Translations under genes and position numbers: made by a program
Origin: Asterias amurensis
Lineage: Eukaryota > Echinodermata > Asteroidea > Forcipulatida > Asteriidae
Direction of reading: 5' to 3'
Assembly (NCBI RefSeq): GCF_032118995.1
Contig: NC_092669.1
Span: forward strand, 12,572,335-12,636,334
DNA length: 64,000 bases
In this document: positions 42,901 through 62,438 of the stretch, in pieces
Layout: every line of letters starts with the position of its first letter
Position numbering within the stretch: position 1 is the stretch's first letter
Notes under the pieces: model-generated
Seen by the model: the letters and a program-made list of their open reading frames with translations, nothing else
What the model was told of the DNA's origin: nothing
The model's database searches: none

Positions 42901-45050
42901 TGGTCCCATGTGTTGTGTAACGCATGTAAAAAGAACCCAGTGCACTTTATCGAAAAGAGTAGGGGTTCGCCCCGGTGTTCCAGGCTGTGGCTGCTGTATG
43001 CGCCACAGCACCTTGTAAACCATTATCAGGTGCTACATAATTGGGTCTCAGAATTCATCACTGCAATAACCTATCTTTCTGAAAGTTTGTATATACTCAG
43101 CGCCTTGAGTACCTTGTTTGGTAGATACGTAAGCTAAAGACTTTGATATTATTATTATTATTAAATTCAAAGAAAATCACCATTTCTCGAAAACTACGTT
43201 ACTTCAGAGGGAGCCGTTTCTCACAATGTTTTATGCTATCAACAGCTCTCCATTGCTCGTTACCAAGTAAGGTTTTGTGCTAATAATTACTTTGAGTATT
43301 TACCAATAGTGTCCACTGCCTTTAAGAGGCGACCCTTTAAAGTCATGTTCTAAGAATTCCATCTCCGTACCTTTCTCAATGAAAGCCTTGACCTTGTCTT
43401 CCTTCACCGTCTTCTTCACTTGGCTCACCTCTTCCTAAAAAAAAAATTAAAAACAAATTTATCAAATGAATTATAATAATTATAAACAGCCTTTATAAAA
43501 GTTTCTGACAAAAATGCCATTCAAGGGCGCAAGTTCGCAAATTTAGACAAAGTCCAGATAACTCAAAACAAACCATCGTTAAATTTATAAGGCACCAGTA
43601 CAGTAGGCTTCAAAAAAAGGTGAGATTGAAGCAAAGTTTTGAAATTGGTTAATAAATGAGAATGCCTGATTTTTATTTTATTTTTATGCACGTCGCCAGA
43701 CACACAAGGCCTGAAGGCCACTTCAAGGTGTGGGCTACAATTTTTTTTTTTCCCAGAGGCTGTTGCCACCTACTCCTAGGGCTGAAACAGGGTTGCCCCT
43801 TTTACAGTCCATACGGATGTAGGCTTAGGTATCATCAGTCCGAAGCCTGGCCGGTAGAGCAGAGAAAGCACAACCTCCCCAATTTTACGTAGAAAGTGTC
43901 ACAACCGGGACTCGAACCCACACTCTGCTGGTCAAACACCAGAGCTTGAATCCGGTGCTCTTAACCGCTCGGCCATGAAGAAGATGATTCCATAGAAACG
44001 TAGAAATCACATCCCTAACGCCTAATACTAATAATAATATTTACATACGCACATATCCGCCCTCCTGGGTTTTCAAGGCGCAATAAACCCATACCCCCCC
44101 CCCCACTCCCGAAAAAAATAAAATAAAAATACAAACCTGTTGGAGGCGACACTGACGATGGTATTCCTTCATCTGTTTCTCATAGTCTTGTTTCTGCTTC
44201 AAGACATACTCAATAATTGCCTCCTTGTCATACAGATACCCCTCCTCACTGGAAAAGATAAGATTTGGGGTTAAGAGTGTCATGGCCGAGTGTTTAAGAA
44301 CATCGAATTCCAGTTCTGGTTGACATAGACACTAGTGGTAATTGTCAAAGACCAGTCTTCTAACTTGGTGTATCTCAACATGCATAAAATAAAAAACCTG
44401 TGAAATTTTGTGCTTTCAGATGAATGATTTCGTGATCTCAAATTCTATATCTGAGGTCTCGAAATCAAATTCGTGGAAAATAACATCTTTCTCGAAAACT
44501 AATGTACATCACTTCAGAGGGAGCCGTTTCTCACAATGTTTTCTACTATCAACCTCTCCTATTACTCGTTACCAAGTAAGGTGTTATGCTAATAATAGTG
44601 TCCACTGCCTTTAAGTCATCGGGGTGTGGGTTCGAATCCCAGTCATGGCAAGATACTTTCCCAATAATTGCTTCTCTTCATCCAGGGGTATTAAACAAGT
44701 CAACCCAAGGGACGGTAGGCCCTTTTCACATCCCGCAGCGAAAATAAAGGCGCATCTCCTGATTGCCATTTTGTGGGTCAAAAATGTGCACGAAAGGAAT
44801 GGATCCCCAAAAAGGCAGAAATGGTCGACGCACATTGTTCGCAGACACCATCCTTTTCTGCGCGTTTTTGACACACAAATTGCGGAGAGGAGGTGTGCGT
44901 GTATGTGTGCTGAGCGTTGTGAATAGGGTATATACAGTACATACGTTATGACTGGGTTGGCGCAGGGCTGTAGGGTCAAGCAACAACAATCAAAGTCACC
45001 CACGGAGTCCTTCCCAAGACGGGTCTTGTTAGTTCCATAGCCGGATTGAG
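39937..45050 (-). CDS. NOSIP: NOSIP-like protein (nitric oxide synthase-interacting protein), start exon not found
   Basis: Seven minus-strand exons with proper splice sites join in frame: 45050-44945, 44248-44137, 43434-43371, 42702-42476, 41654-41467, 40814-40706 and 40014-39937 (stop). They read in order SGYGTNKTRLGKDSVGDFDC, CCLTLQPCANPVIT, EEGYLYDKEAIIEYVLKQK, a charged helix (EEVSQVKKTVKEDK), SITSKPLNPF, LPSFWIPSLTPQAKAT, CPMSKKPLRIKNLIQVNF, CAVTHDILSNKTPCAVLRP, DCIKKIIKKDMTDPFTGD and GGTGFASAAES. This follows vertebrate NOSIP from about residue 25 to the end, including the split U-box-like RING, which acts in E3 ubiquitin ligation. In mammals NOSIP binds endothelial nitric oxide synthase. 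An alanine/serine-rich stretch lies in exon 42702-42476. The exon for the first 20-odd residues (MTRHGKN-type) was not found before TRIM-A, so the gene may lack its start here. Confidence 0.93.
40080..40645 (-). mobile_element. Degraded SINE copies in NOSIP's last intron
   Basis: The body words GGATGTAGGCATGGGTATCA, TGGTAGAGCAGAA and CCACTTCAAGGTGTGG occur in order, partly duplicated at 40080-40290 and 40425-40640. They match the better SINE at 43687-43985. Unit 2 has the same insertions (62580-63180). Confidence 0.6.
41058..41335 (+). mobile_element. tRNA-derived SINE with a conserved body
   Basis: GTCGTGGCCGAGCAATTAAA (A box), CAGCAGAGTGTGGGTTGGAA (B-box region), then CTTCGGATGGGACGTAAAGC, GCATGTAAAAGAACCCAGTG and GGGGTTCGCCCCGGTGTTCC. 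The head is tRNA-Leu or tRNA-Ser-like. The window end (64000) falls exactly at the start of the matching copy in unit 2. Confidence 0.75.
41895..42068 (+). mobile_element. Family 4 MITE, right half
   Basis: ATTTCTCAAAAACTACAGCA, TTGAAGGGAAACTTTGCACT and AAAAAGTACCCAAATTC match the right arm of family 4. The left arm is missing. It ends next to the family 2 element at 42073. Confidence 0.65.
42073..42449 (+). mobile_element. MITE family 2, near full length, in a NOSIP intron
   Basis: TTAA then AGGAATGTTACAGAACTGG at the left, TCTGTAATGTTCCTTT at the right. It holds GAGTTTATCGCTCAGTGAGC and CCAGATGGGCGATCGATCTC. Its right end lies about 25 bp from the NOSIP exon at 42476. Confidence 0.8.
42893..43165 (+). 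mobile_element. 5'-truncated SINE
   Basis: It starts inside the SINE body (TGGTCCCATGTGTTGTGTAA, AAGAACCCAGTGCACTTTAT, GGGGTTCGCCCCGGTGTTCC) and keeps the 3' end CAGCGCCTTGAGTACC with an ATT microsatellite tail. Same body as 41058-41335. Confidence 0.75.
43146..43325 (-). mobile_element. MITE family 1, one arm
   Basis: TCGAAAACTACGTTACTTCA, GGGAGCCGTTTCTCACAATG, CTCGTTACCAAGTAAGG and CCAATAGTGTCCACTGCCTT form the second arm of the family. The first arm is absent. Confidence 0.7.
43687..43985 (-). mobile_element. SINE, near full length, minus strand
   Basis: Read on the minus strand: a tRNA-like head (TTCATGGCCGAGCGGTTAAG, then GTGGGTTCGAGTCCCGGTTG), then a body with GGCCAGGCTTCGGACTGATG and GTAGCCCACACCTTGAAGTG. 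The same body type is at 61590-61885. It sits in a NOSIP intron. Confidence 0.75.
44276..44720 (+). mobile_element. SINE split by a family 1 MITE (44326-44614)
   Basis: The SINE head GTGTCATGGCCGAGTGTTTA stops at about 44325. Family 1 follows (TAGACACTAGTGGTAATTGT to ATAGTGTCCACTGCCTTTAA). The SINE then resumes with GGGTGTGGGTTCGAATCCCA and a body that runs to about 44720. This gives a relative age: SINE first, MITE second. Confidence 0.7.
44725..44930. repeat. Imperfect inverted repeat
   Basis: GCGCATCTCCTGATTGCCAT and TTTTGTGGGTCAAAAATGTG have diverged reverse complements at 44865-44905 (CGCGTTTTTGACACACAAAT, GCGGAGAGGAGGTGTGCG). Probably an old foldback element in the first observed NOSIP intron. 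Confidence 0.5.
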
Positions 45051-45685
45051 CTGCAAGATAACGAACAAAGAATTTCATAAGGGCGTCACAATTTATTCAG
45101 TCTCTTGTTATCTGGTTAATACATTATAGAACCTTCATAAAAGATTTATTGATTGAGGAACATCATTTAAAGGGATTGAGAAGTATCACTTAAAGGGAGA
45201 CGATTCTTTAAAAAATTGATAAATAAAAAATAAAAAAAATAAAAAAAATATCACGTTTCAAAATATTAAAATTCTTGTTTTATATGGAACCTTGAAGTAT
45301 TTATAAATGCACTTTTGTATTTCATTTAGCATGTTTAGTCAGATTATAAAACCATGACTTGTCTCAAATCAGTTTGTGATGAAATCACAGCAATTAATAT
45401 AAAACTGTACACCAAAGTTCTTCTTTGCCCAATTGGTGCTAAGCACAAATTCGTTTCATGCTCGAGTCCCATAGCAAATTGTGCTAAGCAAAACTTCACG
45501 TTAATTACAGAATCTAGAAGTATGTAACCAACTTATTGATTCAGAATTATCATTTATAGATTAATGTCATGATCAAACAATGTAGCAAGCCTATCAATGT
45601 ATGGAATTGTGAACTCTTAAAAGTGATTTGGGGTTGGACAAAAAAATTGTCTAGGGTGAGACTCAAACCAAAGACCTCCAGATTA

Positions 45686-45860
45686 ATTGTATTGTATTGT
45701 ATTGTATTATGTTTTATTCCAAACTGGAACACACCCCGTAACCCTGGGGAGGGTAACAATTTATATAAAAACAAATTACAGTTAATGAATAAGTCATACG
45801 GAAAGGAGTTTAACTTAGAACAAAAACAAATAATCACACAGCATATAGAATTCATCTAAA
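45686..45860 (-). mobile_element. Possible 3' end of a LINE, unit A only
   Basis: A short tail of ATTGT repeats (45687-45712) adjoins GTTTTATTCCAAACTGGAAC and ACAATTTATATAAAAACAAA. It interrupts the tRNA-like block that is continuous in unit B (51980-52130). Short tandem tails are typical of CR1/L2-like ends. No protein part remains. Confidence 0.35.
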
Positions 45861-46189
45861 CAAGTCTACATAAGCAATAATCAACTGCAATATCAATCTA
45901 GATTTATTGACAATGTCTAAAGTTGGGAGTATAATAAGAGACAGATATAGCATTCATCTAAACAAGTCTACATGAGCAATAATCAACTGCAATGTCCATC
46001 TTGGTTAATAGAAAGGTCAAACTTACTCCAAAAACTACAATTCAACTACTTTACAGTCTAGTCAGTCTTTGCAAACAATGATTTGAAATCATGGACAAAA
46101 TGATTTCTGTTGCAAGAGTCTCCAGAGTCACTCACTCCCAAACAACAACAAATGTACACAAAGGAAAGTTTGGAAATAACTTTTATGAA

Positions 46190-46433
46190 TGCACACAGAT
46201 ATTGGGCCATCTGGGTCACAAGAAAATAGTGAAAAACATGACAATGATGCAAAATATAAATGAGCAAAACGCTCACCGAGCAATAAACTCCAGACAGGAA
46301 ATTAGTTTTATTTAGTTCTCATCAAATGCGACATTTCAGACATAAATATTTCAAGGGATGTTTTCTGCCATCACCATCATTAGATCGTGTAAGTTTTATG
46401 TCAATCTGTAATCTGAGCAGATCTGTAATGTTC
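46190..46433 (-). mobile_element. MITE family 2, partial, in both TRIM units
   Basis: GGGCCATCTGGGTCACAAGA, CTCACCGAGCAATAAACTCC and TCTGTAATGTTCCTTTAA. Matching copy at 53180-53417. Confidence 0.7.
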
Positions 46434-46436
46434 CTT

Positions 46437-46804
46437 TAAACGCCCTGGACACAATTGGTAATTACTCAAAATAATTGTTAGCATAAAAACTTACTTTGTA
46501 ATGAGCAATAGTATGGAACATGGTGAGAAACGGCTCTCTCTGAAGTAGGTAGTTTATGAGAAAGAAGTAATTTCTCACTAAAACATTTGAATTGAAATCA
46601 AGACCTCGGCTAAGGTCTCGAAATCAAGCATCTGAAAGCACACAACTTGTGAGGCAAGTTTTTTTTTTTCTTCCATTACTCTCTCGCAACTTCTACGAAC
46701 AATTGGGTTCCAATTTTACAGGTTTGCTATTTTATGCCTATGTTGAGATACACCAATTGAGAAGACTGGTCTTTGACAATAACCAAGTGTGTCCAGTGCC
46801 TTTA
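46437..46804 (+). mobile_element. MITE family 1 downstream of TRIM-A
   Basis: TTTAAACGCCCTGGACACAA to GTGTCCAGTGCCTTTAA. The copy in unit B (53416-53783) is almost identical and in the same place, so the insertion predates the TRIM duplication or was carried across by conversion. Confidence 0.8.
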
Positions 46805-47421
46805 AATGTGATGATAACAATAAAATAAACAATTCACATTATTTTAGCTGTTATGGCATTTTCATAATTGCTTACAACTTTTTCCAATAAGAAGAGGGGA
46901 TTTTATTTACAAAGCAAATTATGGCAAAATATACAATAATTAGTTTTATTACATTTTGATGAGTAATGATTTTCAAAGCAACTCGTTGCATGCAATGTTA
47001 AACTTCATAGATTGCTTCCCTTATCAAAAGGAAAAGGTTGCACTACAAATGAACAACCACATGTAATAATCAACCCTCTGCATGCTTCTATTTCTTGCAA
47101 ATACTATTTACTGCCCAAAGGAATGTTTTTACAAAACCACTTATAATAGACAAGCCTGTATTCAAGATATTTTTTTCTCAAAACAACATTTTACTGCAAA
47201 ATGCAAAATAAATCAACAATTACAGTTGATTAGCAAACAAGTATTACAAAATTTATCAACTCAATGTCATAATATTGAGAATTGAAAATTAATGGTTATA
47301 ATATAAGAACTTTTTAGTGAACAATTTGCATATTTTGGGGATTTAATTTGATTGACATATTTTGATGGTCAGTCCAATCCATGAGACAGTATTTGACCAG
47401 TACCATCATTATTAGATAAGA

Positions 47422-50062
47422 TTACACCTTGTTATAAATCTTCACTGATTTCCAATCTGCCACTGCAAGCTGCTGACCATCTGATGTCAATGAGATTCCA
47501 CATGGGTCATACAGACCCTGAGCAATACAGCTGAGAAATCTACCCTGAGTGTCATACTGATGAATATAACCAGTGTTGCAATCCCCATTGCTCACTGCAA
47601 TGTAGATAGCTGAGCTGTCACAGCATACACCACAGCAGGATGTAACTTGTTGACTATCGATCTTTGGATTGATGCTGAATAATAAAGTACCAGTGACTTC
47701 AACAATGTCTACTTGTTGTTTCCCCCCACCACTGACTACAACTCTGTCCTTGCTGTCAATGGCCAAGTAGCAAGGTTTAGTCTGAACTGAAACAGTGCCA
47801 ATGAGTGAACCATCACTGGATCTGTGTTTAGTTATAACTGACCTCCCCACATCCCCGACCATGATTGATGTATCCTTCATGATTGCTACACTGCTGAGTT
47901 GTACTGATGTCTTGCCCACTTCACTATGAGGCACTGTGTGGAATTCAAACATCTTGGTGCCATTCCTATTGTACATCTTGACAGAGTTAGTCCCATCTAC
48001 AATCACTAACTGATTCTGGAATGCAGCAACAGCCACAGGGTCTGGAAAACAAAAGAACAAATGGATAGGACCTAATATAATGAATGATGATTCATTTGCA
48101 AATTACAATGTACTTTAAATTATTTTGATTTTTGTACAAATACAAAGAGATGATTTTAAAAAAATGTTTCCTGTGTTGTAAAAGCTCTTTGAAAGTTGCT
48201 TCCAATTCAACTGTATACATGTACAGTCTGACAGTGTCAATAACAACAATTTCTACTGATCAAGAAAGAAATTGTACTGAATTCATTCTTTTTAACCTTT
48301 TTTTCAGATTTAACCTAAATTGCAATACTTATTGATATTTATTTTAATCATTTTGTATAAATTTCCTTTGTTGGTGTTGGATAGAGGAATGTCAATTATT
48401 GAGAATGACACCAGCAGAGGGGATTTAGTGATCATGCAGCAGATGAATGTAGTCCTAGTCTACAAGGTTAAGTAAAATATCAATAACCATTCAATTTAAT
48501 GACATACAGTTTGACTACCATGGAAACCTTGTATTGATCACAACCAATGCTGTGATGTTTGAACATTTTAATGGTTGACTTTAGTTGAGAACTGAAACAA
48601 TGTTTGGTAAATATTCTCAGATTTGTTTGTGGTATTGGATTAGAATAAATCCTTATTTTAATGGAATACTCTTCGACTGTCAACCTGAAAACTAATTATT
48701 CAAGAGTACTTTTTGCTAAGTTTTATCTGAGATTTACAACAATATACCTCTGACTACAAGATTTGTAGGGAACTTACTTCTTGATAGTGGGATAGATTTC
48801 TTCTGGCGTCCCTTAGTGTCGTAGATTACCACTCTTCTATTCCCGTGGTCTGCCACTGCCATCTCATCCCCAGGTACAGAGGCATCAATATTCCAAGCCC
48901 CAATGACTTCTACATCACACTCCAAACTAAGCTCCCACTTTGGCTCCTTCATAGACTCCTTAATACTCAGATTACCCAGGGAGATGTCACAAACCCCTGG
49001 ATTGAATCCCAGATGGTCAAGGGTCAAATCTATCTTGGGTTGATTTTGATCTCCAAGTAATTTCAAGTCCTTACTGATTGTTGGATAGCTTGCAAGGAAG
49101 TCAGGCACTGATGAATTGGTGCCGACATCTTTGGCAGTCTGCAGTGAATGCTTTATTTGCTGTGAGTTTAGACTCACCGTTTGCTCAAATTCCTCCAATT
49201 TCTTGTTCCGATCTTTAAGAATAGTTTGTATTTCATCCATGATGCGACTCTCTTGAGCTGTTACCTCAGCCCTGATCTCATCCGCTCTGTTCTTCACCTC
49301 TGCCATGGTTCTCTTAGCTGCAATGTTTAGGTTGTCTTTCATTGTTGAGGCAGTTGCTTGAGATTGATCAAGGTTCTTCAGGGTTTCTTCAAGGGGAGGA
49401 AAGAGTTGAGCCAATGACTGTTTATATGTGGATGAGGCTTGGTCGCAGTCAATATACTCATGTTGTGGATTACGGTGATCTATGACAGTGCAATCTCTAC
49501 AAATCATCACATCACATGTTGTACAGTAGAACCTCATCACTTCACCTGCATGAGTTTGGCATTCTGGATGACGCTTTGGTTTTGTCTTTTTCATTGCAAT
49601 CTTTCCATCACTAATATCTTTCAAAGTCGCTACTGTATGGCTTGCCGATGCTGGAATTTGATTGTGTATTTCATTGCAGTTTGCACAGATGATCATGAGG
49701 CAGTCACAACAGAAATACGTTGCTTCATTTTTCTCTTTGCATAATTTACAGACCAACTTGCTGTTTGCAGATAAGCTGACCTGCTCCAGTTGACCTGCAA
49801 GACCCGTTAAAATGAAGTTACTCTTGAAATCTTCAACACCCGTCTCAGGAAGTTGTGTCTCCTTTCGACACAAAGGACAAGTAAGCATCTTTGCATCTTT
49901 GTAGTTGGTAGTGAGATATTGAAGTAAACAGTGTTTACAGAAGCTGTGAAGACAGTCTAGTAGTTTGGGTTCCGTGTACTCCTCGTGACAAATACTGCAC
50001 TCCAGATAATCCTTTCGGATTTTCTCTAGAGCTGAACCTTGTGATGGTTTAGAATATGCCAT
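47422..50062 (-). CDS. TRIM-A: RING/B-box/coiled-coil/NHL-type E3 ubiquitin ligase
   Basis: Two coding exons: 50062-48778 (428 codons plus one base; donor AGAA|GTAAG) and 48041-47422 (acceptor TTTTCCAG), together 634 residues. A C3HC4 RING spans about residues 22-65 (C22, C25, C37, H39, C42, C45, C62, C65). B-box 1 spans about 105-142, B-box 2 about 168-201 and a coiled coil about 210-315. From about 380 to the end are NHL-like propeller strands (MAVADHGNRRVVIYDTKGRQ, and near the end QLAVADWKSVKIYNKV). The RING should transfer ubiquitin in the cytoplasm and the propeller should select target or RNA. The plan matches TRIM2/3/56/71-like proteins, a group expanded in echinoderms. The start ATG lies 6 bp after an acceptor and a non-coding exon lies upstream (50959). 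Intact, no defects seen. The exact target is unknown. Confidence 0.93.
48060..48770 (-). other. TRIM-A coding-exon intron
   Basis: The intron between the TRIM-A coding exons is AT-rich. It aligns with 55030-55680 in TRIM-B with several small indels, so it is more diverged than the 3' flank of the genes. No element is nested in it. Confidence 0.6.
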
Positions 50063-50157
50063 TTTGATCTGAATAAAAAAAACCACAATTAACAAACTAA
50101 TTAATCAAATATTATAAACCGCAAGGGAATCTGACTCGGTAAACTTGAAATAAAATG

Positions 50158-50364
50158 GGTTGAACAAAAAAAATTGGACTAAAGTGGGACTCGAACCAGC
50201 GACCTTCGAAGTAGCATGCCAACGCTCTACCAACTGAGCTATCTAGCCAACATAGAGAGACATACAACACATGGCTTATAGCTCAGTTTGTAGAGCGCCA
50301 GCACATATTATCTGGAGGCCGTTGGTTCAAGTACCACTCTAGTAAAATTGTCTTGGTTCAACCC
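50158..50364. repeat. Two tRNA-like blocks in inverted arrangement, upstream of TRIM-A exon 2
   Basis: GGTTGAACAAAAAAAATTGG and TTGTCTTGGTTCAACCCC are inverted ends. Between them, one block on the minus strand (GTTGGCTAGATAGCTCAGTT, GGTCGCTGGTTCGAGTCCCA) and one on the plus strand (GGCTTATAGCTCAGTTTGTA, CCGTTGGTTCAAGTACCACT) face each other. Anticodon and acceptor stems do not close, so these are not working tRNAs. The same structure is at 57078-57284. Confidence 0.65.
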
Positions 50365-50958
50365 CAAATAAAAAGAATTAACATGTAATTTGCACAAACA
50401 GCTGTTGCTATTCTACATCAAAATGAACCATGCATCATACATTAAATGGTAATGTAATGAAACATTAACATTCTATGTGAACATGAAAATTTCTTTGATG
50501 TAGTATTTTTCAATCAGCTTTTAAGCAACCATTTAAGCATCAATTTTAAGTCAATTACCAATAATTTGTTACCAATGGGTGGGACTCTTTAGTTCAGCAC
50601 TGAATATTGGGGATGCTAAATGACATAAAGAGAACTAGCGTAATCTGATTAAATAGTTGTTAACACTAAGGTTCAAGTATTTTACAATTTTTTGTTACAA
50701 AGCGGATCTGCTGCACTTTTCTTGCAAATACTTATTTTTGTCTCAGTTTTAGCATAAAAGTAATTTTTGTCTCACTGAAATTATTTTTGTGACTTTGTTT
50801 TACTATAATTTCTCAAAAACTACACATCCTCAGTGAGCATAAAATGATGTACTGCACAATTTAAGTGGTCTTGGTAATAATATACAATCTTAGGCCTGTT
50901 TTAAATAAGCTGGCAAAGTATTTGAGCATAAATGAATCAGATTGTGATCTGTACTCAC

Positions 50959-51070
50959 CTAAGCACTTAGTACTGTTGGAAAAGATGTCCAAGATACGTC
51001 TGCAATCTTGTCAGTGTCAGGATGTTCACTGAGTTTACACCAGTCTAGAACCAGTTTAGAACGCAGGATT
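50959..51070 (-). other. TRIM-A 5' untranslated exon and likely promoter side
   Basis: On the minus strand the segment ends CACTTAG|GTGAGTAC, a strong donor, 0.9 kb before the acceptor that precedes the TRIM-A ATG. The start of the exon is not defined by sequence alone. The matching exon of TRIM-B ends at 57857. Confidence 0.55.
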
Positions 51071-51423
51071 ATGTCGCAACAAATAGTCACAAAAACACCT
51101 ACGTAGCAAGTTTGTACTATGTACTGTGCAGGGTGTGTCCACAGTTACTGGATTAATGCATATTACATGTACAGGTACAACTTTGGTAATGCAGTACTGT
51201 ACATTGTGTATGTTGACAATGAACTTCAGTGTCAAAGGTCATGGAGCTAGCGATACTGCACGTTGTCTGGGCTGTTATCAATGAACTTGGCAGTGTACAT
51301 GGTGTACTGTAAACAACTCCATGAGTGCACAATACGATACATACATAGAGTGATGAAGTTGTAAAGAGCGATATAGAAATAGGTTATTATATATATTACT
51401 ACCGTCTACAGTATGAAAGGTCT

Positions 51424-51641
51424 GGACCCAATTTCATACAGCTGCTAAGCACAATTAAATTTCTTCTCTGGTAAAAACAGGATTACCAACCAAATTTTCA
51501 TTTGTTGCATTGCTTGATACTTAGCTGTTTGCTAAATCCTGAAAATCTTGGGGAAATTTGGTTTGTAATCCTGTTTTTAACAAGGAAGAAATTTCATGCT
51601 AAGCAAATGTTTGTGCTTACAGGCTTTATGAAATAGGGCCC
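51424..51641. mobile_element. MITE with GGGCCCTATTTCATA ends, complete
   Basis: GGACCCAATTTCATACAGCT and GCTAAGCACAA on the left. GTGCTTACAGGCTTTATGAA and ATAGGGCCC on the right. Central words GGTAAAAACAGGATTACCAA and TTGGTTTGTAATCCTGTTTT are complementary. The copy at 58270-58468 in unit B is cut off by the duplication junction. Confidence 0.8.
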
Positions 51642-51979
51642 TGTATGCTACGGGAAATGAAACAGCACACAGGTGCACTTTCGTATTTTATTTCAAGTCG
51701 GATTATAAAAAAACATGACTTGTCTCAAATTATTTTGTGATGAAATCACAGCAACTAAAATAAAAATGTACACCAGAGTTCTTCTTTGCCCAATTGGTGC
51801 TAGGCACAAGTTCATTTTATGCTAGAGTCCCATAGCAAATTGTGCTAAGCAAAATTTCACGTTAATTATAGAATCTAGAAGTATGTATTACCAACTTATT
51901 GACTCGGACTAATCATTTAAAGAATACTGTCATGATCAAACATTGTAAATGTATGGAATTATGAACTTTAAAAAATGAT

Positions 51980-52130
51980 TTGGGGTTGAAAAAAGGAAAA
52001 TTGTCTAGAGTGGGACTCAAACCAACGACCTCCAGATTTATGCCGGCGCTCTTCCAACTGAGTGAGCTAGTCCTATGTTGGCGGTCTTCCTATTTTATCA
52101 GTTTCTTTGTTCAGGGGTACCAGTCATTCC
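51980..52130 (-). repeat. tRNA-like repeat
   Basis: GAGTGGGACTCAAACCAACG, CCTCCAGATTTATGCCGGCG and CTTCCAACTGAGTGAGCTAG read on the minus strand as a tRNA-like molecule with A and B boxes. Similar blocks are at 23000-23110 and 45615-45686. Confidence 0.5.
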
Positions 52131-52309
52131 AGTTTTCATAAAAGGCCACAAGATTTATACACAATGCACACAGACCAAGTTTGTACAATTGGAAAATACC
52201 TCTTAGCTCAGAGCAGTTTTTACAAGACAAAGGAAATTAAATAAGGAAGAGAGATAGTGGAATAAATCTTCACTTGACAAGAAATAATAATAGAGTAGGA
52301 ATCATCTCC

Positions 52310-52800
52310 AGATTTATTGACAATGTCTAAAGTTGGGAGTACAATAAGAGACAGATATAGCATTCATCTAAACAAGTCTACATGAGCATTAATCAACTGC
52401 AATGTCAATCTTGATTTATTGACAATGTCTAAAGTTGAGAGTACAATAAGAGACAGATATAGCATTCATCTAAACAAGTCTACATGAGCAATAATCAACT
52501 GCAATGTCAATCTTGGTTATATATACAGATCAAACTTACTCCAAAAACTACAATTCACCTACATTAAAGTCTGTGCAAATAATGATTTGAAATCATGGAC
52601 AAAATAATTCTGTTGAAAGAGTCTCCTGAAACCCTCATAAACAACAACAAAAGTACAAAATTGAAAGTTGGGATTATAAAAACAGAGAAGTACCATTAAA
52701 TAAACTGACATGAGCAATAATCAACTGCAATGTCAATCTTGGTTATATAGTCCTACAGATCAAACTTACTCCAAAAACCACAATTCAACTACTTTACAGT
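52310..52800 (+). repeat. 113-bp local tandem repeat
   Basis: GATTTATTGACAATGTCTAA, GAGACAGATATAGCATTCAT and GCAATAATCAACTGCAATGT recur at about 52311, 52412 and in part at 52710. Unit A has two copies (45843-46010). The segments between 52540 and 53100 repeat the CTACAATTCAACTACTTTAC and ACAACAACAAA words several times. Confidence 0.75.
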
Positions 52801-53415
52801 CGAGTTAGTCTGTGCAAACAATGATTTGAAATCATAGACAAAATGATTTCTGTTGCAAGAGTCTCCCAGGTCCCTCCCATACAACAACAAATGTACACAA
52901 AGGAAAGTTTGGAAAATATAAAAAACAGAGAAGTACCATCAAATAAATTTCCATAAAACTACAATTCAACTACTTTACAGTCTAGTTCTTCCTCCACGGT
53001 CTGTGCAAACAATGATTTGAAATATGGGCAAAATTATTTCTGTTGTAGGGGTTCCCTGAAACCGTCCCAAACAACAACAAAAAGTACAAAAAGGAATGCT
53101 TAGGAGAAATGGTCAATTAGCATGAAATCAAATAGCCACTTCCGACTGTGTTTTAAATAGCTTTTATGAATGCACAAAGATATTGGGCCATCTGGGTCAC
53201 AAGAAAATAGTGAAAAACATGAATGATGCCAAACATAAATGAGCAAAACGCTCACCGAGCAATAAACTCCAGACAGGAAATTAGTTTTATTTATTTCTAA
53301 TCAAATGCGACATTTCAGACATAAATATTTCAAGGGATGTTTTCTGCCATCACCATCATTAGATCGTGTAAGTTTTATGTCAATCTGTAATCTGAGCAAT
53401 TCTGTAATGTTCCTT

Positions 53416-53783
53416 TAAACGCCCTGGACACAATTGGTAATTACTCAAAATAATTGTTAGCATAAAAACTTACTTTGTAATGAGCAATAGTATGAGACAT
53501 GGTGAGAAACGGCTCTCTCTGAAGTAGGTAGTTTATGAGAAAGAAGTAATTTCTCACTAAAACATTTGAATTGAAATCAAGACCTCGGCTAAGGTCTCGA
53601 AATCAAGCATCTGAAAGCACACAACTTGTGAGGCAAGTTTTTTTTTTTCTTCCATTACTCTCTCGCAACTTCTACGAACAATTGGGTTCCAATTTTACAG
53701 GTTTGCTATTTTATGCCTATGTTGAGATACACCAATTGAGAAGACTGGTCTTTGACAATAACCAAGTGTGTCCAGTGCCTTTA
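53416..53783 (+). mobile_element. MITE family 1 downstream of TRIM-B
   Basis: Nearly identical to 46437-46804, including the same short internal open frame, and lies in the same position relative to the TRIM stop codon. Confidence 0.8.
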
Positions 53784-54400
53784 AATGTGATGATAACAAT
53801 AAAATAAACAATTCACATTATTTTAGCTGTTATGGCATTTTCATAATTGCTTACAACTTTTTCCAATAAGAAGAGGGGATTTTATTTACTAAGCAAATTA
53901 TGGCAAAATATACAATAGTTAGTTTTATTACATTTTGATGAGTAATGATTTTCAAAGCAACTCGTTGCATGCAATGTTAAACTTCATAGATTGTTTCCCT
54001 TATCAAAAGGAAAAGGTTGCACTACAAATGAACAACCACATGTAATAATCAACCCTCTGCATGCTTCTATTTCTTGCAAATACTATTTACTGCCCAAAGG
54101 AATGTTTTTACAAAACCACTTATAATAGACAAGCCTGTATTCAAGATATTTTTTTCTCAAAACAACATTTTACTGCAAAATGCAAAATAAATCAACAATT
54201 ACAGTTGATTAGCAAACAAGTATTACAAAATTTATCAACTCAATGTCATAATATTGAGAATTGAAAATTAATGGTTATAATATAAGAACTTTTTAGTGAA
54301 CAATTTGCATATTTTGGGGATTTAATTTGATTGACATATTTTGATGGTCAGTCCAATCCATGAGACAGTATTTGACCAGTACCATCATTATTAGATAAGA

Positions 54401-56977
54401 TTACACCTTGTTATAAATCTTCACTGATTTCCAATCTGCCAGTGCAAGCTGCTGATCATCTGATGTCAATGAGATTCCACATGGGTTGTACAGACCCTGA
54501 GCAATACAGCTGAGAAATCTCCCCTGAGTGTCATACTGATGAATATGACCAGTGTTGAAATCCCCATTGTACACAATGTAGATAGCTGAGCTGTCACAGC
54601 ATACACCTCTGCAGGATTGAACTTGTTGACTATTGATCTTTGGATTGATGCTGAATAATAAAGTACCAGTGACTTCAACAATGTCTACTTGTGGTTTCCC
54701 CCCACCACTGACTACAACTCTGTCCTTGCTGTCAATGGCCAAGAAGTAAGGTTTAGTCTGAACTGAAACAGTGTCAATGAGTGAACCATCACTGGATCTG
54801 TGTTTAGTTATCACTGACCTCTTCACATCCCCTACCATGATTGATGTATCCTTCATGATTGCTACATTGTGGAGGAGTACTGCAGTCTTGCCCACTTCAC
54901 TATGAGGCACTGTGTGGAATTCAAACATCTTAGTGCCATTCCTATTGTACATCTTGACAGAGTTGGTCCTATCTACAATCACTAACTGATTCTGGAATGC
55001 AGCAACAGCCCGAGGGTCTGGAAAACAAAAGAACAAATGGATAGGACCCAATATAATGAATGATGATTCATTTGTAAACCACAATGTACTTTACATTATT
55101 TTGTTTTTTGTACAAATACAAAGATTTTTTTTTTAATGTTTCCTGTGTTGTAAAAGCTCTTTGAAAGTTGCTTCCAATTCAACTGTATACAGTCTGCCAG
55201 GATAACAATAACAACAATTTCTACTGATCAAGAAAGAAATTGTACTGAATTCATTCTTTTTAACTTTTTTTCTTCTTCAGATTTTACCTAAATTGCATTT
55301 CTTATTGATATTTATTTTAATCATTTTGTATAAACTTCCTTTGTTGGTGTTGGATAGAGGAATGTCAATTATTCAGAATGACAGCAGCAGAGTGGATTTA
55401 GTGATCATGCAGCGGATGAATGTAGTCCTAGTCTACAAGGTACAGTGAAATATCAATAACCATTCAATTTCATGACATACAGTTTGACTACCATCCATGG
55501 AAACCTTGTATTGATCACAACCAATGCTGTGAGGTTTGGACATTTGAATGGTTGACTTTGGTAAATGTTCTCAGATTTGTTTGTGGTATTGGATTGGAAT
55601 AAATCCTTATTTTAAAGGAATACTTTTTGCGAAGTTACATCTGAGATTTACAACAATACCTCTGACTAAAATAATTGAAGGGAACTTACTGCTTGATAAT
55701 GGAATAGATTTCTTCTGGTGTCCCTTAGTGTCGTAGATTACCACTTTTCTATTCCCGTAGTCTGCCACTGCCATCTCATCCCCAGGTACAGAGGCATCAA
55801 TATCCAAAGCCCCATTGATTCCTTCATCATACTCCAAACTAAGCTCCCACTTTGGCTTCTTCATAGGCTCCTTCGTACTCAGGTTACCCAGGGAGATGTC
55901 ACAAACATCTGGAGTGAATCTCAGATGGTCAAGGGTCAAATCTATCTTGGGTTGATTTTGATCTCCGAGTAATTTCAAGTCCTTACTGATTGTTGGATAG
56001 CTTGCAAGGAAGTCAGGCACTGATGAATTGGTGCTGACATCTTTGGCAGTCTGCAGTGAATGCTTTATTTGCTGTGAGTTTAGACTCACCGTTTGCTCAA
56101 ATTCCTCCAATTTCTTGTTCCGATCTTTAAGGATAGTTTTTATTTCATCCATGATGCGACTCTCTTGAGCTGTTACCTCAGCCCTGATCTCATCCGCTCT
56201 GTTCTTCACCTCTGCCATGGTTCTCTTAGCTGCAATGTTTAGGTTGTCTTTCATTGTTGAGGCAGTTGCTTGAGATTGATCAAGGTTCTTCATGGTTTCT
56301 TCAAGGGGAGTAAAGAGTTGAGCCAATGACTGTTTATATGTGGATGAGGCTTGGTTGCAGTCAATATACTCATGTTGTGGTTTACAGTGATCTATGACAG
56401 TGCAATCTCTACAAATCATCACATCACATGTTGTACAGTAGAACCTCATCACTTCACCTTCATGAGTTTGGCATTCTGGATGACGCTTTGTGCGTCTTCT
56501 CCCTTTTTGTTCAATCTTTCCATCAACAAAGTCTTTGAATGTTACTACTGTGTGGAAAAGTAGTGAAGGAATTTTCTGGTGCAATTCTGCGCAGTTTGCA
56601 CAGATGATCATGGGGCAGTCACAACAGAAATACGTTGCTTCATTTTTCTCTTTGCATAATTTACAGACCAACTTGCTGTTTGCAGATAGGCTGACCTGCT
56701 CCAGTTGACCTGCAAGACCCGTTAAAATGAAGTTACTCTTGAAATCTTCAACACCCGTCTCAGGAAGTTGTGTCTCCTTTCGACACAAAGGACAAATAAG
56801 CATCTTTGCATCTTTGTAGTTGGTAGTCTGATATTCAAGTAAACAGTGTTTACAGAAGCTGTGAAGACAGTCTAGTAGTTTGGGTTCTGTGTACTCCTCG
56901 TGACAAATACTGCACTCCAGATAATCCTTTCGGATTTTCTCTAGAGCTGAACCTTGTGATGGTTTAGAATATGCCAT
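54401..56977 (-). CDS. TRIM-B: RING/B-box/coiled-coil/NHL-type E3 ubiquitin ligase
   Basis: Two coding exons, 56977-55690 (donor AGCA|GTAAG) and 55017-54401, encode 634 residues. All RING and B-box zinc ligands of TRIM-A are kept. Differences cluster in the B-box 1 to B-box 2 linker (AELHQKIPSLLFHTVVTFKD, then IEQKGRRRTKRHPE) and in the propeller (for example SAIYIVYNGDFNTGHIHQYD against SAIYIAVSNGDCNTGYIHQY). The RING and coiled coil are nearly unchanged. This suggests conserved catalysis and oligomerisation with a changing recognition surface, as expected for a TRIM gene under diversifying selection, for example in immunity. That reading is inference. The gene looks intact. A non-coding first exon lies upstream (57857). 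Confidence 0.93.
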
Positions 56978-57077
56978 TTTGATCTGAATGAAAAAAGAGC
57001 AATTAACAAACTAATTAATCAAATATTATAAACCGCAAGGGACGTCAATCTGACTCGGTAAATTTAAAATGATATGG

Positions 57078-57284
57078 AGGTTGAACAAAAAAAATTGAAC
57101 TAAAGTGGGACTCGAACCAGCGACCTTCGAAGTAGCGTGCCGACGCTCTACCAACTGACCTATCTAGCCAACATAGAGAGACATACAACACATGGCTTAT
57201 AGCTTAGTTAGTAGAGCACCAGCACATATTAACTGGAGGCAGTTGGTTCAAGTCCTACTCCAGTAAATGTTTCTTTGTTCAACC
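57078..57284. repeat. Two tRNA-like blocks in inverted arrangement, upstream of TRIM-B exon 2
   Basis: Counterpart of 50158-50364, with GAGGTTGAACAAAAAAAATT and CTTTGTTCAACCTC ends. Point differences occur in both tRNA-like halves. Confidence 0.65.
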
Positions 57285-57856
57285 TCAAATAAAAAGAATT
57301 AACATTCAGTTTGCACAAACAGCTTTTGCTGTTCTACATCAAATTGTACCATGCATCATACATTAATGGAAATGTAATGAAACATTAACATTCTATGTGA
57401 ACATGAAGATTTCTTTGATGTAGTATTTATCAATCAGCTTTTAAGCAACCATTTAAGTCAATTACAAATAATTTATTACCAATGGGTGGGCTCTTTGGTT
57501 CAGCACTGAATATTGGGGATGCCAAATGACATAAAGAGAATTAGCGTAATCAAGTATTTCTGATTAAATAGTTGAGAACACTACGGTGCAAGTATTTTAC
57601 AATATTTTGTTACAAATAAGCGGATCTGCTGCACTTTCCTTGCAAATCTTAGGTATTTTTGTCTAGCAGTTTTAGCATAAAAATAATTTTTGTCTCACTG
57701 AGATTATTTTTGTGACTTTGTTTAACTATCATTTCTCAAAAACTGCAACACCTAAGCGAGCACAAAGTAAGTGGTATTGGTATACAATCTTAGGCCTGTT
57801 TTAAATTAAGCTGAAGTATTTTAGCAAAGTTGAATCAGTTTGTGATCTGTACTCAC

Positions 57857-57950
57857 CTAAGCACTTAGTACTGTTCAAAAAGATGTCCAAGATACGTCTG
57901 CAATCCTGTCAGGATGTTCACTGAGTTTACAACAGTCTCTTATTTCATGG
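57857..57950 (-). other. TRIM-B 5' untranslated exon
   Basis: Ends CACTTAG|GTGAGTAC on the minus strand, as in TRIM-A. The segment is shorter than in unit A because part of the GTCAGTGTCAGG region is missing. Confidence 0.5.
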
Positions 57951-58269
57951 TAAAACTCAAAACTCTGTCGCAACAAATACAGTCACAAAAACACCTACGT
58001 AGCAAGTTTGTACTATGTACTGTGAAGGGTGTGTCCACAGTTGCTGGATCAATGTAAAACATACAATGTACTGCAGTACTGTATGTTGACAATGAACTTC
58101 AGTGTCAAAGGTCATGGAGCTATGGATACTGCACTACTGTTTGTTGTCTGGGCTGTTTTAACAATGAACTTGGCAGTGTACATGGTGTAAACAACTCCAT
58201 GAGTGTACAATACATACATAGGTATAGAGTGATAAAGTTGTAAAGAGCGATATAGAAATAAGGTTATTA

Positions 58270-58468
58270 TTACTATTCATAGGGCTGCTAAGCACAACAA
58301 ATTGCTTAGCATGAAATTTCTCGGTAAAAACAGGATTACTAACCAAATTTTCATTTGTTGCATATTGCTTGATACTTGTGTTCAGCTGTTGTTTGCTAAA
58401 TCTTGAAAATCACGTGAAAATTTGGTTGGTAATCCTGTTTTGTAACAAGGAAAAAATTTCATGCTAAG
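58270..58468. mobile_element. GGGCCC-type MITE truncated at the duplication junction
   Basis: Matches 51424-51641 up to TTTCATGCTAAGCAA, where the sequence jumps to the start of the large duplication (CAATCATTCC). The right 30-odd bases of the MITE are missing. Confidence 0.75.
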
Positions 58469-58583
58469 CAATCATTCCTATTCAATCAGAACGTTATGCA
58501 ATCGACAGACGGCCGGGCATGTCAAGAGACATGACTCTTGCTTGGCGTCGTTCATTCAACTTTCAAGATTCAACAAAACTTAC

Positions 58584-58663
58584 TCAAAATGCCGGGTGGT
58601 CTGCCTGAAATTTACTCCCATTCTCCGGCTGGCTGTTCTCTGTGATTTGATGTGAATTCCCAT
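58584..58663 (-). CDS. Candidate first coding exon of an unrecognised gene, copy 2
   Basis: Identical to 36082-36161, with the same start context and donor. The duplication begins about 115 bp past its donor, so the downstream exons of copy 1 are not next to it. Unless it splices into TRIM-unit sequence it is an orphan first exon. Confidence 0.4.
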
Positions 58664-59460
58664 GGTGACACTCGCATTCGCAGACGACAGACAGTAAACA
58701 GAATATTGATTTAAAAAGAACTGTTTCCATCACAACAATAAAAGCTTTATTTTCGTTGCAGAAGTCAAAACAACGACCAGCAGTCTTAGTCCCCAATCGT
58801 TTTCCATTAGTGCTTGTTTGTTCATACTAATATCTACGTAATAGCAATACTTTAGGTACCATACTAATTCTGTAACTTCTCAAAAGAGGGCGCTGCTTAC
58901 ATTTTGTCGAAATCTTTTTTCGACCCGCGTCAGAAATTACGCCCCCCCCCCCCAAAAAAAAAAAAAAATAAAATAAATAAATAATAAATAAATAAATAAA
59001 GTTAAAGAATTTAAATACAAGAACTACATGTATTCATTATAGTTAAAACGGCAAAAATCTATGAATTTATCGTCAACAAATGAGTTATCATTTTCCTGGT
59101 CCCAATGCTTCCTCCGATACTAAAAAATAATGGAAACAAGATAAAAAGCCTTTTAAAAAAAAAAAGGGAAAAAGATTTTTCTTCGTATGAGTATTTTGAG
59201 CTTTTGTTTTAATAAGGGGCGTGATTCACGGGGCCACCGTCGTTCATATAAAACCACCCCCTCTATGTTTATCTTTCCTTAATTTTCCCCTTTTTGGGGG
59301 AGGGGGGAAGGCACTGGAAATTTTGTGGGAGGCGCCCCTCCCATTCCCTGCCGGCTACGCGCCGCTGCCTGTGCCTTGGTGACTCCTATACAAGGGATAG
59401 GACTAGGTGGTGGTCGCAAATTTCGGATCCCTCGTTTCGAAATGTGTGACCCGCTCCCTG

Positions 59461-59660
59461 GGCCCAATTTCATGAAACATGCTAAGCAAAATTCTGCCTG
59501 ACAAAAATTAATACACAATATTTTGCTAAGCAAAATAAAAAAAGTTAATTGAGTGGTCACAACAATGTCAGTGGGCTGGTAGCCCGTTTCTGTAATGGCA
59601 ATTTTTTGTCTATGCTTATGTGAGTTTTTGTGCTTACAGGTTTTATAAAATCCTTGGCCT
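59461..59660. mobile_element. GGGCCC-type MITE, second-unit copy
   Basis: Counterpart of 36948-37148 with one- to four-base indels. The stretch to 61015 mirrors 37150-38469 with no new element. Confidence 0.65.
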
Positions 59661-61015
59661 TGGTGTCAGTGTCAACATGACCCAGGGGGCGGGGGGGGGG
59701 GGGGGGGGGGACACGGGTTGATGAGTTTGTCTAACTACTTTCAGACCCAGAAATCTCAACGTTCAAGGTTTTTGAAAAGGGGGGGGGGCACCAAAATTCA
59801 GGGTGGCTGCTTCAATTTTAAGCATAAACTACAACCTGAAATCTTAAAATAAAATAAAGGGGCAAGCCTGACATGTTTAGCAGATCACAATAATCAAAAT
59901 TTTAAGCCCCGTTTGTTATGCTCTTTTTACTAATGAATTTTAACAAATCTTCGGACAGGATTTGCCAAATGTTTTGAAATATTGATAATTCTTGGACAAA
60001 ATTTGAAACTAATTTTGCTTGTTGAATATTTGGGAAAATACTGACAGCAGTTTTGTGTGAAGTTTTCCCCTCACCAAAATAAACTCTAGTAAAGAAAATG
60101 AAAGGAATTGACTCAAAAAAATTAATTATTCACTACTGACCATGGAACAAATTATCTACATTTTAAAAACCTTTATTTATTACAGACATTAAAATAATAT
60201 TTAATTAACACAATTTAAAGGTAAATATTAAACTTGGCTTGCTGTCATAAATGAACGATCTGTGGTTTCCCTCAAAATGTTAAAAATAACAACAAATTAT
60301 ACACATGAGCCTTTTATACACATACTTGTCATGTGTGCAGTTATACCATAAATATTCTTTTGATTGGTAAGTAGTTTGCAACAGCCAAGTCTATTTTCTT
60401 TTTCAAAAACTGCCATATTCTTGAGTCAGCCATTTTAAGTCTTACTCCCTGACTGTGACAGGGTTTTGGATACACACAATGCTCATGAGAGTAACCAGAC
60501 TGTTTTTGTTTACTGTGGAATATCTAATAGATATTATTGAATTGTCAAACAGGCTTAAAGGAATATTACAGAATTGTTTTTTTGATAACAAAACAGTTGC
60601 TGGCAGTTGCTTTTTTGTAATCCACCATATACATAAACTGACAAGGGTTTAGAAGTTTGAGATCGATCAACCATCTGGATCAGAAGAATTATATTGTGCG
60701 CTTTCTGCATGGGGCTAGAAGTCATTTCAGAGGGAAATATTTCATAGAAAAAAATGGTTCTCAAATTAGTAAAGCTATCAGACTTAGATTAAACGCATGA
60801 ACTTCATAGTCAGAAAAGATTTCAGATTAAAATTAACCAATGTTTTAAATCTTTACTAATCCTGTACAATGCCGAAAACTGTTATTGACCACCCGCCCCC
60901 CCCCCCCCCCAACCACCAAAAAGGAAATGCAAATAAACAGGTTTTATATACTCCATATTGGAAAACGGTGTCCCAGTAAGCATCTTACATCAAAGATTTA
61001 AAGGGAAAGTATTAA

Positions 61016-61390
61016 AGGCAGTGGACACTATTGGTAATTAATCAAAATAATTATTAGCAAAAAACCTTACTTGGTAATGAGTAATGGGGAGAGGTTGATA
61101 GTATAAATCAATGTGAGAAACGGCTCCCTCTGAAGTGGAGTAGTTTTCGAGAAAGAAGAAAATTGCCACGAATTTGATTTCAAGACCTCAGATTTAGAAT
61201 TTTGAGGTCTCGAAATCAAGCATCTGAAAGCACACAACTTCAAGGGTGTTTTTTCTTTCATTATTATCTCCCAACTTCAATGACCGATTGAGCTCAAATT
61301 TTCACAGGTTTGTTATTTTATGCATATGTTGAGATACACCAAGTGAGAAGACTGGTCTTTGACAATTACCATTAGTGTCCAGTGCCTTTA
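61016..61390 (+). mobile_element. MITE family 1, second-unit copy
   Basis: TTAA-AGGCAGTGGACACTATTGG to TTAGTGTCCAGTGCCT-TTAA. It keeps AATTATTAGCAAAAAACC and CTTGGTAATGAGTAATGGGG, which are deleted in the unit 1 copy at 38470-38810. Confidence 0.8.
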
Positions 61391-61589
61391 AAGGCAAAGT
61401 ATACCTTTTGGTTTTTGGAACCCAATGATTGTTTTAATCCTTTTTGAATGTAAATATTATGAACAATAAAACTAACCTGTGAAAATTTCTTTCTAAAAGG
61501 TGGTAGCATTTTGGAGAAACTGCCGAAAACCCAGAGCGGTTTAGTCGCCGCAGGAAGAATAATCCTTAATTGTTTTTTTTATATTTTAT

Positions 61590-61885
61590 TTATGCAAGTC
61601 GCCTGACACACAAGGCCTGAAGGCCACTTCAAGGTGTGGGCTACAATTATTTTTTCCAGAAGCCGTTTCCACCTACTCCTAGGGCTGAAACAGGGTTAAC
61701 CCCTTTACAGTCCATATGGATGTAGGCTTGGGTATCATCAATTCGAAGTCTGGCCGGTAGAGCAGAAAGCACTACCTCCCCAATTTTATGTAGCAAGTGT
61801 CACGACTGGGATCCGAACCCACACCCTGCTGATCAAACAGCAGAGCTTGAATCCAGTGCTCTTAACCGCTCGGCCATGACACTGC
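61590..61885 (-). mobile_element. SINE inserted only in the second unit
   Basis: Read on the minus strand: GTGTCATGGCCGAGCGGTTA, GTGTGGGTTCGGATCCCAGT, then the body with CCCTGTTTCAGCCCTAGGAG and GGCCTTGTGTGTCAGGCGAC. The first unit lacks it between about 38983 and 38990, where the flanking words GTCGCCGCAGG and AACAAATA are close together. Confidence 0.8.
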
Positions 61886-62256
61886 CACGAACACTGACAC
61901 TGGTGGTTAGAACAAATAGCTTCTACGGTTGATTTAGCCATTGGTTAATCACAAGTCAATAACCGAAATAGTTGATGGTTACAGCTGCCAAAACTCACCC
62001 CTACTTCCCCCAGATCTTTTTTTCACCCAAGAAATAAACCAAATAAAAACAACATTATTTATGGAGTGGGTAGGGGGAGTACGTAGTGGGCGGAGACTGG
62101 GGAGGGGGCGTGGTTCCAGGTCAGGGTATCACAAAAAGTTAAGACTAGTCTTACCTCGACTTAGGACTAGCGGACCTTAAGTTTTTAGTATCTCCTAAGA
62201 CTACTCCTAAGTAAGGACTAACTAGTCTTAACTCTTTGTGAAATCAACCCAAGGGG

Positions 62257-62399
62257 CCGATTTCAAAAAGATCTAAGACTGATCTTAACTCCAAATCAAT
62301 CATAGGTGCTTAGTAATGTGTGATGTCACAATACAAATCACCATGGTGATACTGACAACACATCTTACGATGAATCTTAGTGATTTGTGAAATCGGGGC
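62257..62399. mobile_element. Short MITE inserted only in the second unit
   Basis: CCGATTTCAAAAAGATCTAA on the left is inverted at GATTTGTGAAATCGG on the right, with TAAGACTGATCTTA and TCTTACGATGAATCTTAGTG inside. The first unit has no such block at about 39892. It lies about 40 bp from the NOSIP stop codon. Confidence 0.75.
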
Positions 62400-62438
62400 C
62401 CTGGAGCCATAGATGTGACTCGTGGGCGTTCTTATTAA

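Follow-up and report, generated by a model that had tools for sequence, protein, structure and literature searches.

The 64,000-nucleotide stretch of the Asterias amurensis genome analyzed here (the window; NC_092669.1, positions 12,572,335 to 12,636,334 in assembly GCF_032118995.1) carries two similar genes, termed TRIM-A and TRIM-B. Both lie on the minus strand and share the same layout of two coding exons, the intron having GTAAGT at its donor site and CAG at its acceptor site:

47422-50062, minus strand: TRIM-A; exon 1 at 48778-50062, intron at 48042-48777 (GTAAGT...CAG), exon 2 at 47422-48041 with the stop codon TAA at 47422-47424.
54401-56977, minus strand: TRIM-B; exon 1 at 55690-56977, intron at 55018-55689, exon 2 at 54401-55017.

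The product of exon 1 comprises a RING, two B-box stretches, a helical region and one blade of a propeller, the remainder of which is supplied by exon 2. Pfam searches recovered the RING (PF13445; 35.2 bits in TRIM-A and 37.4 bits in TRIM-B, cut-off 25.2) and the B-box (PF00643; 45.2 and 38.6 bits, cut-off 24.1), the latter as two stretches per protein. Residues from about 200 to 315 matched long helical families, all below the Pfam threshold. The scores for the NHL repeat (PF01436) fell under the cut-off of 20 in both TRIM-A (12.9 bits) and TRIM-B (13.6 bits), and we therefore refer to the propeller as NHL-like; a distant paralogue, L026, cleared the same cut-off with 23.3 bits. A profile built from 40 exon-2 proteins matched the NHL domain of TRIM3 (6e-15), the WD-40 propeller 2ymu (3e-13) and the NHL domain of TRIM2 (6e-13). 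An AlphaFold2 model of exon 2 alone folded into about five blades (predicted local distance difference test, pLDDT, 94; predicted template modeling score, pTM, 0.90). Its top Foldseek match was the NHL domain of TRIM3 (E 2.2e-11, template modeling score 0.82 by query), and the NHL domains of TRIM2, TRIM71 and Brat were matched as well. Judging from its sequence, the blade encoded last in exon 1 would be the sixth of the propeller.

We aligned the TRIM-A unit (45310-51677) to the TRIM-B unit (51678-58468) and counted mismatches per region. The 3′ flank (46197-47421) differed at 11 of 1223 positions (0.9%), with 5 mismatches in the sub-stretch 46434-47420, in line with a preliminary description of this DNA that had put the difference at about six per kilobase. 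Every other region was more divergent (Fisher p of 1.6e-9 or less against the 3′ flank): mismatches amounted to 34/576 (5.9%) in exon 2 above the breakpoint, 41/661 (6.2%) in the intron, 74/1285 (5.8%) in exon 1, and 50/722 (6.9%) in the near part of the 5′ flank, rising to 93/705 (13.2%) further out. At the protein level, the last exon showed 24 differences over 204 compared codons, close to the 20 or so in 205 residues noted before. A one-changepoint fit over 46150-48777 placed the switch at 47462/47463 (rates 0.0099 and 0.0606; interval of 2 log-likelihood (lnL) units, 47425-47508), and none of 2000 permutations gave an equally good fit. This bears out the earlier observation that the switch falls within the last 40 bp or so of the coding sequence, which ends in the stop codon at 47422-47424. 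The homogenized tract has the following extent:

46197-47462, minus strand: homogenized tract on the TRIM-A side, consisting of the 3′ flank and the last ~41 bp of coding sequence; 11/1264 mismatches to TRIM-B, 0.5-2.1% from the paralogues g3 and g7 by block.
53178-54441, minus strand: homogenized tract on the TRIM-B side, from the pairwise alignment; outer end approximate.

Because the intron, exon 1 and the 5′ flank diverge as much as the last exon, it is the near-identical flank that is the outlier and needs a special explanation. The statement that the coding exons differ far more than the 3′ flank was accurate, but it omitted that the intron and the 5′ flank are equally diverged. Even divergence over flank and introns, which the preliminary description had set against its own claim, was not what we found (0.9% in the flank versus 6.2% in the intron). 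The expectation of a ratio of non-synonymous to synonymous rates (dN/dS, omega) above 1 in the last exon also failed for this pair: the values were 0.77 (0.50-1.28) for exon 1 and 0.85 (0.47-1.77) for exon 2, both neither above nor well below 1, so that pairwise dN/dS was uninformative and gave no sign of positive selection in either exon of TRIM-A and TRIM-B. As the intron and 5′ flank match the exon in divergence, and as exon-2 bases outside the selected codons described below (24/543) do not differ significantly from the intron (41/661, p = 0.20), the step between flank and exon in this pair is explained by a conversion-like tract alone.

Two repeats lie in the 3′ flanks. The segment 46433-46806, inside the homogenized flank of both genes, belongs to a dispersed repeat (~70-88% alike, both orientations) with relatives near 13436, 14163, 27109, 38510, 43183 and 61012. 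In the far 3′ flank of TRIM-B, a 102-bp unit is present twice in tandem (52311-52515), with almost no difference between the two; related repeats seem to vary in number across family members.

A search with the last exon of TRIM-A against its own assembly (491.5 Mb, 23 contigs), in which 150 of 291 candidates were scored, revealed at least 52 copies at 70% identity or more on contigs C4 (33 copies), C22 (10, including TRIM-A and TRIM-B), C6 (5), C10 (2), C14 (1) and C17 (1). TRIM-A and TRIM-B belong to this set of no fewer than 52 close copies of a gene for a TRIM-NHL-like protein with predicted E3 ligase activity. An internal stop was absent in 51 of these 52 copies. They are clustered in tandem, none lying farther than 2.9 Mb from the end of a contig and 27 of them lying less than 1 Mb from it. 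Left out of the analyses were 13 of the 33 C4 copies, which were not fetched, and L044, the start of which was misplaced by the trimming rule. The resulting set of 36 exon-2 copies also omits the distant copies c14 and c17, which are present in the 120 gene pairs and absent from the 14-gene site tests reported below, and the exon-1 tests omit g7, g10 and c6a (exon 1 truncated or unaligned). In the C22 copies g7 and g10, exon 1 is open and short (703 and 697 bp), without RING and B-boxes and with the helical region and propeller kept, so these copies possibly represent RING-less forms. At 2.45-2.89 Mb of C4, last-exon copies occur in pairs that score equally and are spaced at constant distances (~118 kb and ~369 kb), which may reflect large recent block (segmental) duplications or a duplication in the assembly. 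The ten C22 copies are less exposed to this doubt because all ten differ at the selected sites.

Block-by-block comparison of TRIM-A with the nine other C22 copies showed that the nearest copy changes along the gene. Beginning in the far part of the 5′ flank and continuing down to B-box2, it was g3 (0-1.7%), with g5 equally near in the outermost block. The intron was closest to that of g7 (1.2%), the 3′ flank to those of TRIM-B, g3 and g7 (0-2.1%), and the far 3′ flank to those of g8 and g3 (1.9-2.3%). For exon 2 there was no close copy, all nine being 3.7-9.2% away by half. The homogenized 3′ flank is a haplotype common to four genes, namely TRIM-A, TRIM-B, g3 and g7. Two further segments of TRIM-A belong to this picture:

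50063-51600, minus strand: 5′ flank of TRIM-A; by block, divergence of 0.2-1.7% to g3 and of 7-10% to TRIM-B.
49520-49700, minus strand: B-box1 patch; TRIM-A and TRIM-B differ by ~20%, with 28% in the worst 100-bp window (49610-49709) and 1-4% in most neighboring windows.

The divergence of the B-box1 patch is high because the two genes hold different family types, TRIM-A that of g3, g5, g8 and g9, TRIM-B that of g4 and g6. In a shared-run test on eight full-length C22 genes (28 pairs, 500 permutations), the shared fragments of the top 14 of the 28 pairs were matched by none of the permutations; examples are runs of 816 bp between TRIM-A and g3 and of 698 bp between TRIM-B and g9. The pairwise homoplasy index (PHI) test indicated recombination in exon 1 (p = 0.001) and was non-significant in exon 2 (p = 0.11), so shuffling inside exon 2 is unsupported by PHI. 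TRIM-A is a mosaic. Near-identical blocks of flank, intron and exon 1 are found shuffled among the copies, as from ectopic gene conversion or unequal exchange, and the conversion-like 3′ flank common to TRIM-A and TRIM-B is one of these blocks.

Selection became apparent at the level of the family. Among 16 genes (120 pairs), omega exceeded 1 in no pair for exon 1 (median 0.50) and in 86 pairs for exon 2 (median 1.23); within C22, this was the case for exon 2 in 19 of 28 pairs. In the 36 exon-2 copies, 153 of 212 columns had an entropy below 0.5 bit, the variation being packed into few columns. Codon models M1a and M2a were fitted with in-house code, without a cross-check by PAML, and sites were called at a posterior above 0.9. 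For the 36 copies, twice the log-likelihood difference (2ΔlnL) between M2a and M1a was 739; the model assigned an omega of 10.7 to 11.9% of the codons, and 23 sites were called. Repeats on the ten C22 copies and on 14 genes gave 2ΔlnL of 162 and 313, and three thirds fitted with separate trees gave 222, 134 and 225. The RING-to-helical part of exon 1, which served as a control, yielded 0.70 (2.36 without the B-box1 patch) and no sites in either run. Seven simulations under the M1a null, with tips shuffled per third, produced 2ΔlnL of 2.7-17.8 and 0-3 false sites per run. Since the propeller blade encoded by exon 1 is also selected (2ΔlnL 64.7), diversifying selection follows the domain and not the exon. 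The selected segments are:

47422-48039, minus strand: exon-2 propeller of TRIM-A; 23 codons at posterior >0.9 (residue 1 = codon 48037-48039), namely residues 2, 16, 47, 49, 65, 88, 90, 91, 105, 106, 108, 115, 131, 133, 134, 136, 150, 154, 155, 178, 180, 196 and 197.
54401-55015, minus strand: exon-2 propeller of TRIM-B; 13 of the 23 selected codons unlike TRIM-A.
48778-48920, minus strand: first propeller blade of TRIM-A (exon 1); selected residues 384, 390, 406, 407, 409 and 427 (posterior >0.9).

Each of the 23 exon-2 sites showed 3 to 11 residue types, and the residue strings at these sites were distinct in all 36 copies (pairwise differences: mean 17.0, minimum 4). Between TRIM-A and g3, 19 of the 23 selected codons differed, compared with 12 of 543 other bases; between TRIM-A and TRIM-B, the figures were 13 of 23 and 24 of 543. 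The earlier suggestion of flank conversion, diversifying selection or both hence applies as "both" to the family, whereas selection finds no support in the TRIM-A/TRIM-B pair taken alone. Codon usage at the selected sites was uneven: in the alignment of 47422-48039, the second base was C in only 6% of selected codons, and serine was encoded by AGY at eight of the ten sites where it was listed and by TCN at two. This may reflect residue preference or mutational bias.

When secondary structure was assigned to the AlphaFold2 model by DSSP, the DA and BC loops proper contained 17 of the 23 sites (Fisher p = 4e-6), a number that rose to 20 when directly adjoining strand residues were included (p = 8e-7). 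Each exon-2 blade carried two to seven selected sites. About two dozen codons, most of them in the DA and BC loops, are thus under very strong diversifying selection on a conserved scaffold, and the enzymatic part of the protein is conserved as well. In the model, the selected sites are concentrated on the putative ligand face. RNA is bound by the top surface of characterized NHL domains (PMC9070667, PMC5908797), and diversity is described at the top opening of NHL domains (PMC9634614).

A second, distant group of genes, ~30-36% identical to exon 2 of TRIM-A, was found on C4 (5.36-6.68 Mb), C10, C12 and C21. It apparently lacks the intron of TRIM-A, because many frames are open over ~650 amino acids. 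We took 20 propeller stretches of this group from C4, dropped L065 for a stop codon and used the remaining 19, several of which are near-identical, so that their effective number is smaller. M2a versus M1a gave a 2ΔlnL of 122.7 with 13 sites at 0.9. Twelve of these were no more than one residue away from a selected site of the first family (p = 3e-7), nine of them at exactly the same position, a correspondence that depends on an alignment at about one-third identity.

Taken together, these findings make it probable that the genes form a germline repertoire of TRIM-NHL-like recognition ligases, in which exchange homogenizes the shared parts and selection diversifies the binding face. Copies would multiply by duplication, and ectopic gene conversion or unequal exchange would spread blocks of flank, intron and exon 1, while selection would drive the loop face of the propeller apart and leave the shared parts homogenized. 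The loop face may bind ligands that vary and change fast, pathogen proteins or RNA being the likeliest; dimerization may be the task of the helical region, and the RING may ubiquitinate the bound target. Both the kind of ligand and an immune role are what we infer for the family. For the broader notion of an echinoderm repertoire of perhaps 150 or more such ligases, in at least two long-separated subfamilies with hypervariability at corresponding loop positions, we put the chances at about even.

Several observations weigh against this interpretation. Between TRIM-A and g7, which differ by 1.8% in the intron and 2.2% in the 3′ flank, the proportions of differing sites in exon 2 reached 7.2% for non-synonymous (pN) and 5.2% for synonymous (pS) positions, both higher than in the intron (p = 5e-6 and p = 0.02, with the intron count rounded to 13/730). 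The raised silent sites mean that some of the exon-2 difference in this pair is linked or imported and not due to point selection. A few of the 23 sites may be false because the null simulations gave up to three false sites per run. Three sites are neither inside nor next to the DA and BC loops: 49 and 136 occupy positions two and three of A strands, and 115, a conservative V/L/I position, lies in a CD loop. The designation of the DA and BC loops as the top face is a matter of convention, the Pfam NHL scores of TRIM-A and TRIM-B remain below cut-off, variation in the distant group is confined to the later blades (residue 89 on), and one assembly underlies all results.

Alternative explanations were considered for both the flank and the codons. 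If the 3′ flank were functionally constrained, as a 3′ untranslated region or regulatory DNA next to normally diverged exons, poly-A-signal-like hexamers at matching positions in the flanks of TRIM-A and TRIM-B would find an explanation, as would the fair similarity of g4, g6 and g8 (2.5-3.2% divergence) in the outer block, at a distance of 0.8-1.2 kb from the stop codon. However, in the 0.4 kb adjoining the stop codon the remaining six C22 copies are 7-11% away (g4, g5, g6 and g8, 8-11%), the next 0.4 kb is covered to just 11% in g4, g6 and g8, and in the outer block less than half is matched by g5 and g9, with 13-15% divergence. To be little diverged from one end of the tract to the other is a mark of one haplotype class and not of position; we rejected constraint because other C22 copies diverge there, and regard it as very improbable. 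It is also rather unlikely that TRIM-A and TRIM-B are a very recent duplicate (~1% old) whose exons, intron and 5′ flank were overwritten by later exchange with paralogues. TRIM-A is indeed a mosaic, its 5′ half nearly exactly that of g3 and so possibly derived from it, yet nearly the entire remainder would have to be replaced, and for a flank type common to four genes local exchange of blocks is simpler.

As for the codons, frequent exchange among copies can inflate M1a/M2a comparisons, and the null runs did reach 17.8. That the signal is merely an artefact of recombination or misalignment, with no positive selection at all, is nevertheless hardly credible: recombination as its source was rejected because 2ΔlnL was 739 in exon 2 versus 0.70 in the recombinant exon-1 control and at most 17.8 in the null runs, and loop positions are selected repeatedly, in six blades as well as in the second subfamily. 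A targeted mutational or templated mechanism, germline or somatic, acting in place of selection on ordinary mutation might be suspected from the distinctness of all 36 copies at the selected sites, from the scarcity of C at the second position (6%), and from the number of distinct-codon pairs that differ at two or three bases (498/721 at selected versus 152/401 at other sites). We consider it improbable, as ordinary mutation plus exchange suffices, the selected sites are scattered in loops over two exons with residue types that suit a binding surface, and no template or mutator turned up, though no search aimed at one was made. There is a greater, if still minor, chance that the family serves self/non-self recognition, gamete functions or developmental RNA regulation instead of immunity. 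The number of copies, their arrangement in tandem arrays and the pattern of selection are typical of pathogen recognition; on the other hand, characterized TRIM-NHL proteins bind RNA via the top surface of the NHL domain and act in development (PMC9070667, PMC5908797). In the sea urchin, ~140 genes carry a tripartite-motif annotation, and ultraviolet damage, which is stress and not infection, raises several of them in immune cells, including some that bear the names TRIM71 and TRIM56 (PMC13043383). This response is compatible with an immune role and falls short of proof.

The repertoire proposed here has partial counterparts in known systems. With TRIM2, TRIM3, TRIM71 and Brat, it shares the order of RING, B-box, helical region and propeller, and the modelled fold of exon 2 matches their NHL domains. 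The genes for these proteins are conserved and few in copy number, whereas the present family numbers 52 close copies or more, has a hypervariable face and scores weakly against the Pfam NHL model. In Brat and LIN41, RNA is bound by the top surface of the NHL domain (PMC9634614, PMC9070667, PMC5908797). The finTRIMs of teleosts likewise form a large, recently duplicated TRIM family with positive selection in the C-terminal ligand domain, mostly at loop sites (M1a-M2a 2ΔlnL 208, 16 sites, one recombination point); their ligand domain, however, is a B30.2 and not an NHL-like propeller, and their RBB region is also positively selected (2ΔlnL 25, 4 sites), in contrast to the RING-to-helical part here, which has no such sites (PMC2657112). 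The WD-repeat NLRs of Podospora (het-d, het-e, nwd) possess beta-propellers in which four positions of each repeat, located on the interaction surface, are under diversifying selection, and repeats are exchanged within and between genes (PMC4986451). These are fungal NLRs with highly alike WD repeats in variable number, unlike the fixed, dissimilar blades of the animal TRIM family described here. Among the literature matches listed, judged by titles and the openings of abstracts and mostly not extending to subscription papers, none described an NHL-type TRIM family that is hypervariable or positively selected. Diversifying TRIMs with B30.2 and diversifying propellers in fungal NLRs are known; an animal TRIM family with an NHL-like propeller that varies at the loops of one blade after another joins both.

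The Sp185/333 (SpTransformer) proteins of the sea urchin are, to our knowledge, unrelated to the TRIM-A family and have neither RING nor propeller. Their genes are similar in representing a clustered, repeat-rich and rapidly diversified echinoderm immune family (PMC5103432, PMC8634487). The TRIM-A family offers a testable candidate for a large echinoderm recognition repertoire without V(D)J-type receptors, with the residues for ligand-binding tests named above, and exchange and selection are seen acting on adjoining DNA with measurable boundaries. If the interpretation holds, the propeller would be a counterpart of the antibody-like or VLR-like principle of an invariant scaffold with a variable face, coupled directly to ubiquitination.

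A few other features were observed. A tRNA-Ser(gct) gene (50176-50248) lies on the same strand as TRIM-A, ~115 bp upstream of its start codon. ARAGORN called two tRNAs in the window and Rfam one, the call without an Rfam counterpart being tRNA-Leu(caa) at 43898-43981. The region upstream of TRIM-B (58469-63513) is repeated piecewise at 35972-40962, the largest pieces being 93-94% identical; this repeat breaks off at 35972, close to a tandem array (32753-35229), in the place expected for a TRIM-B. Elsewhere in the assembly, contig C23 is mitochondrial. Of three genetic codes applied to its COX1 (tables 5, 9 and 2), the invertebrate code (table 5) and the echinoderm/flatworm code (table 9) kept the frame open, and table 9 produced the expected conserved residues. 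Two full-length COX1-like stretches on the large contig C5 (658874-660214 and 675294-676634) are likely nuclear copies of mitochondrial DNA.

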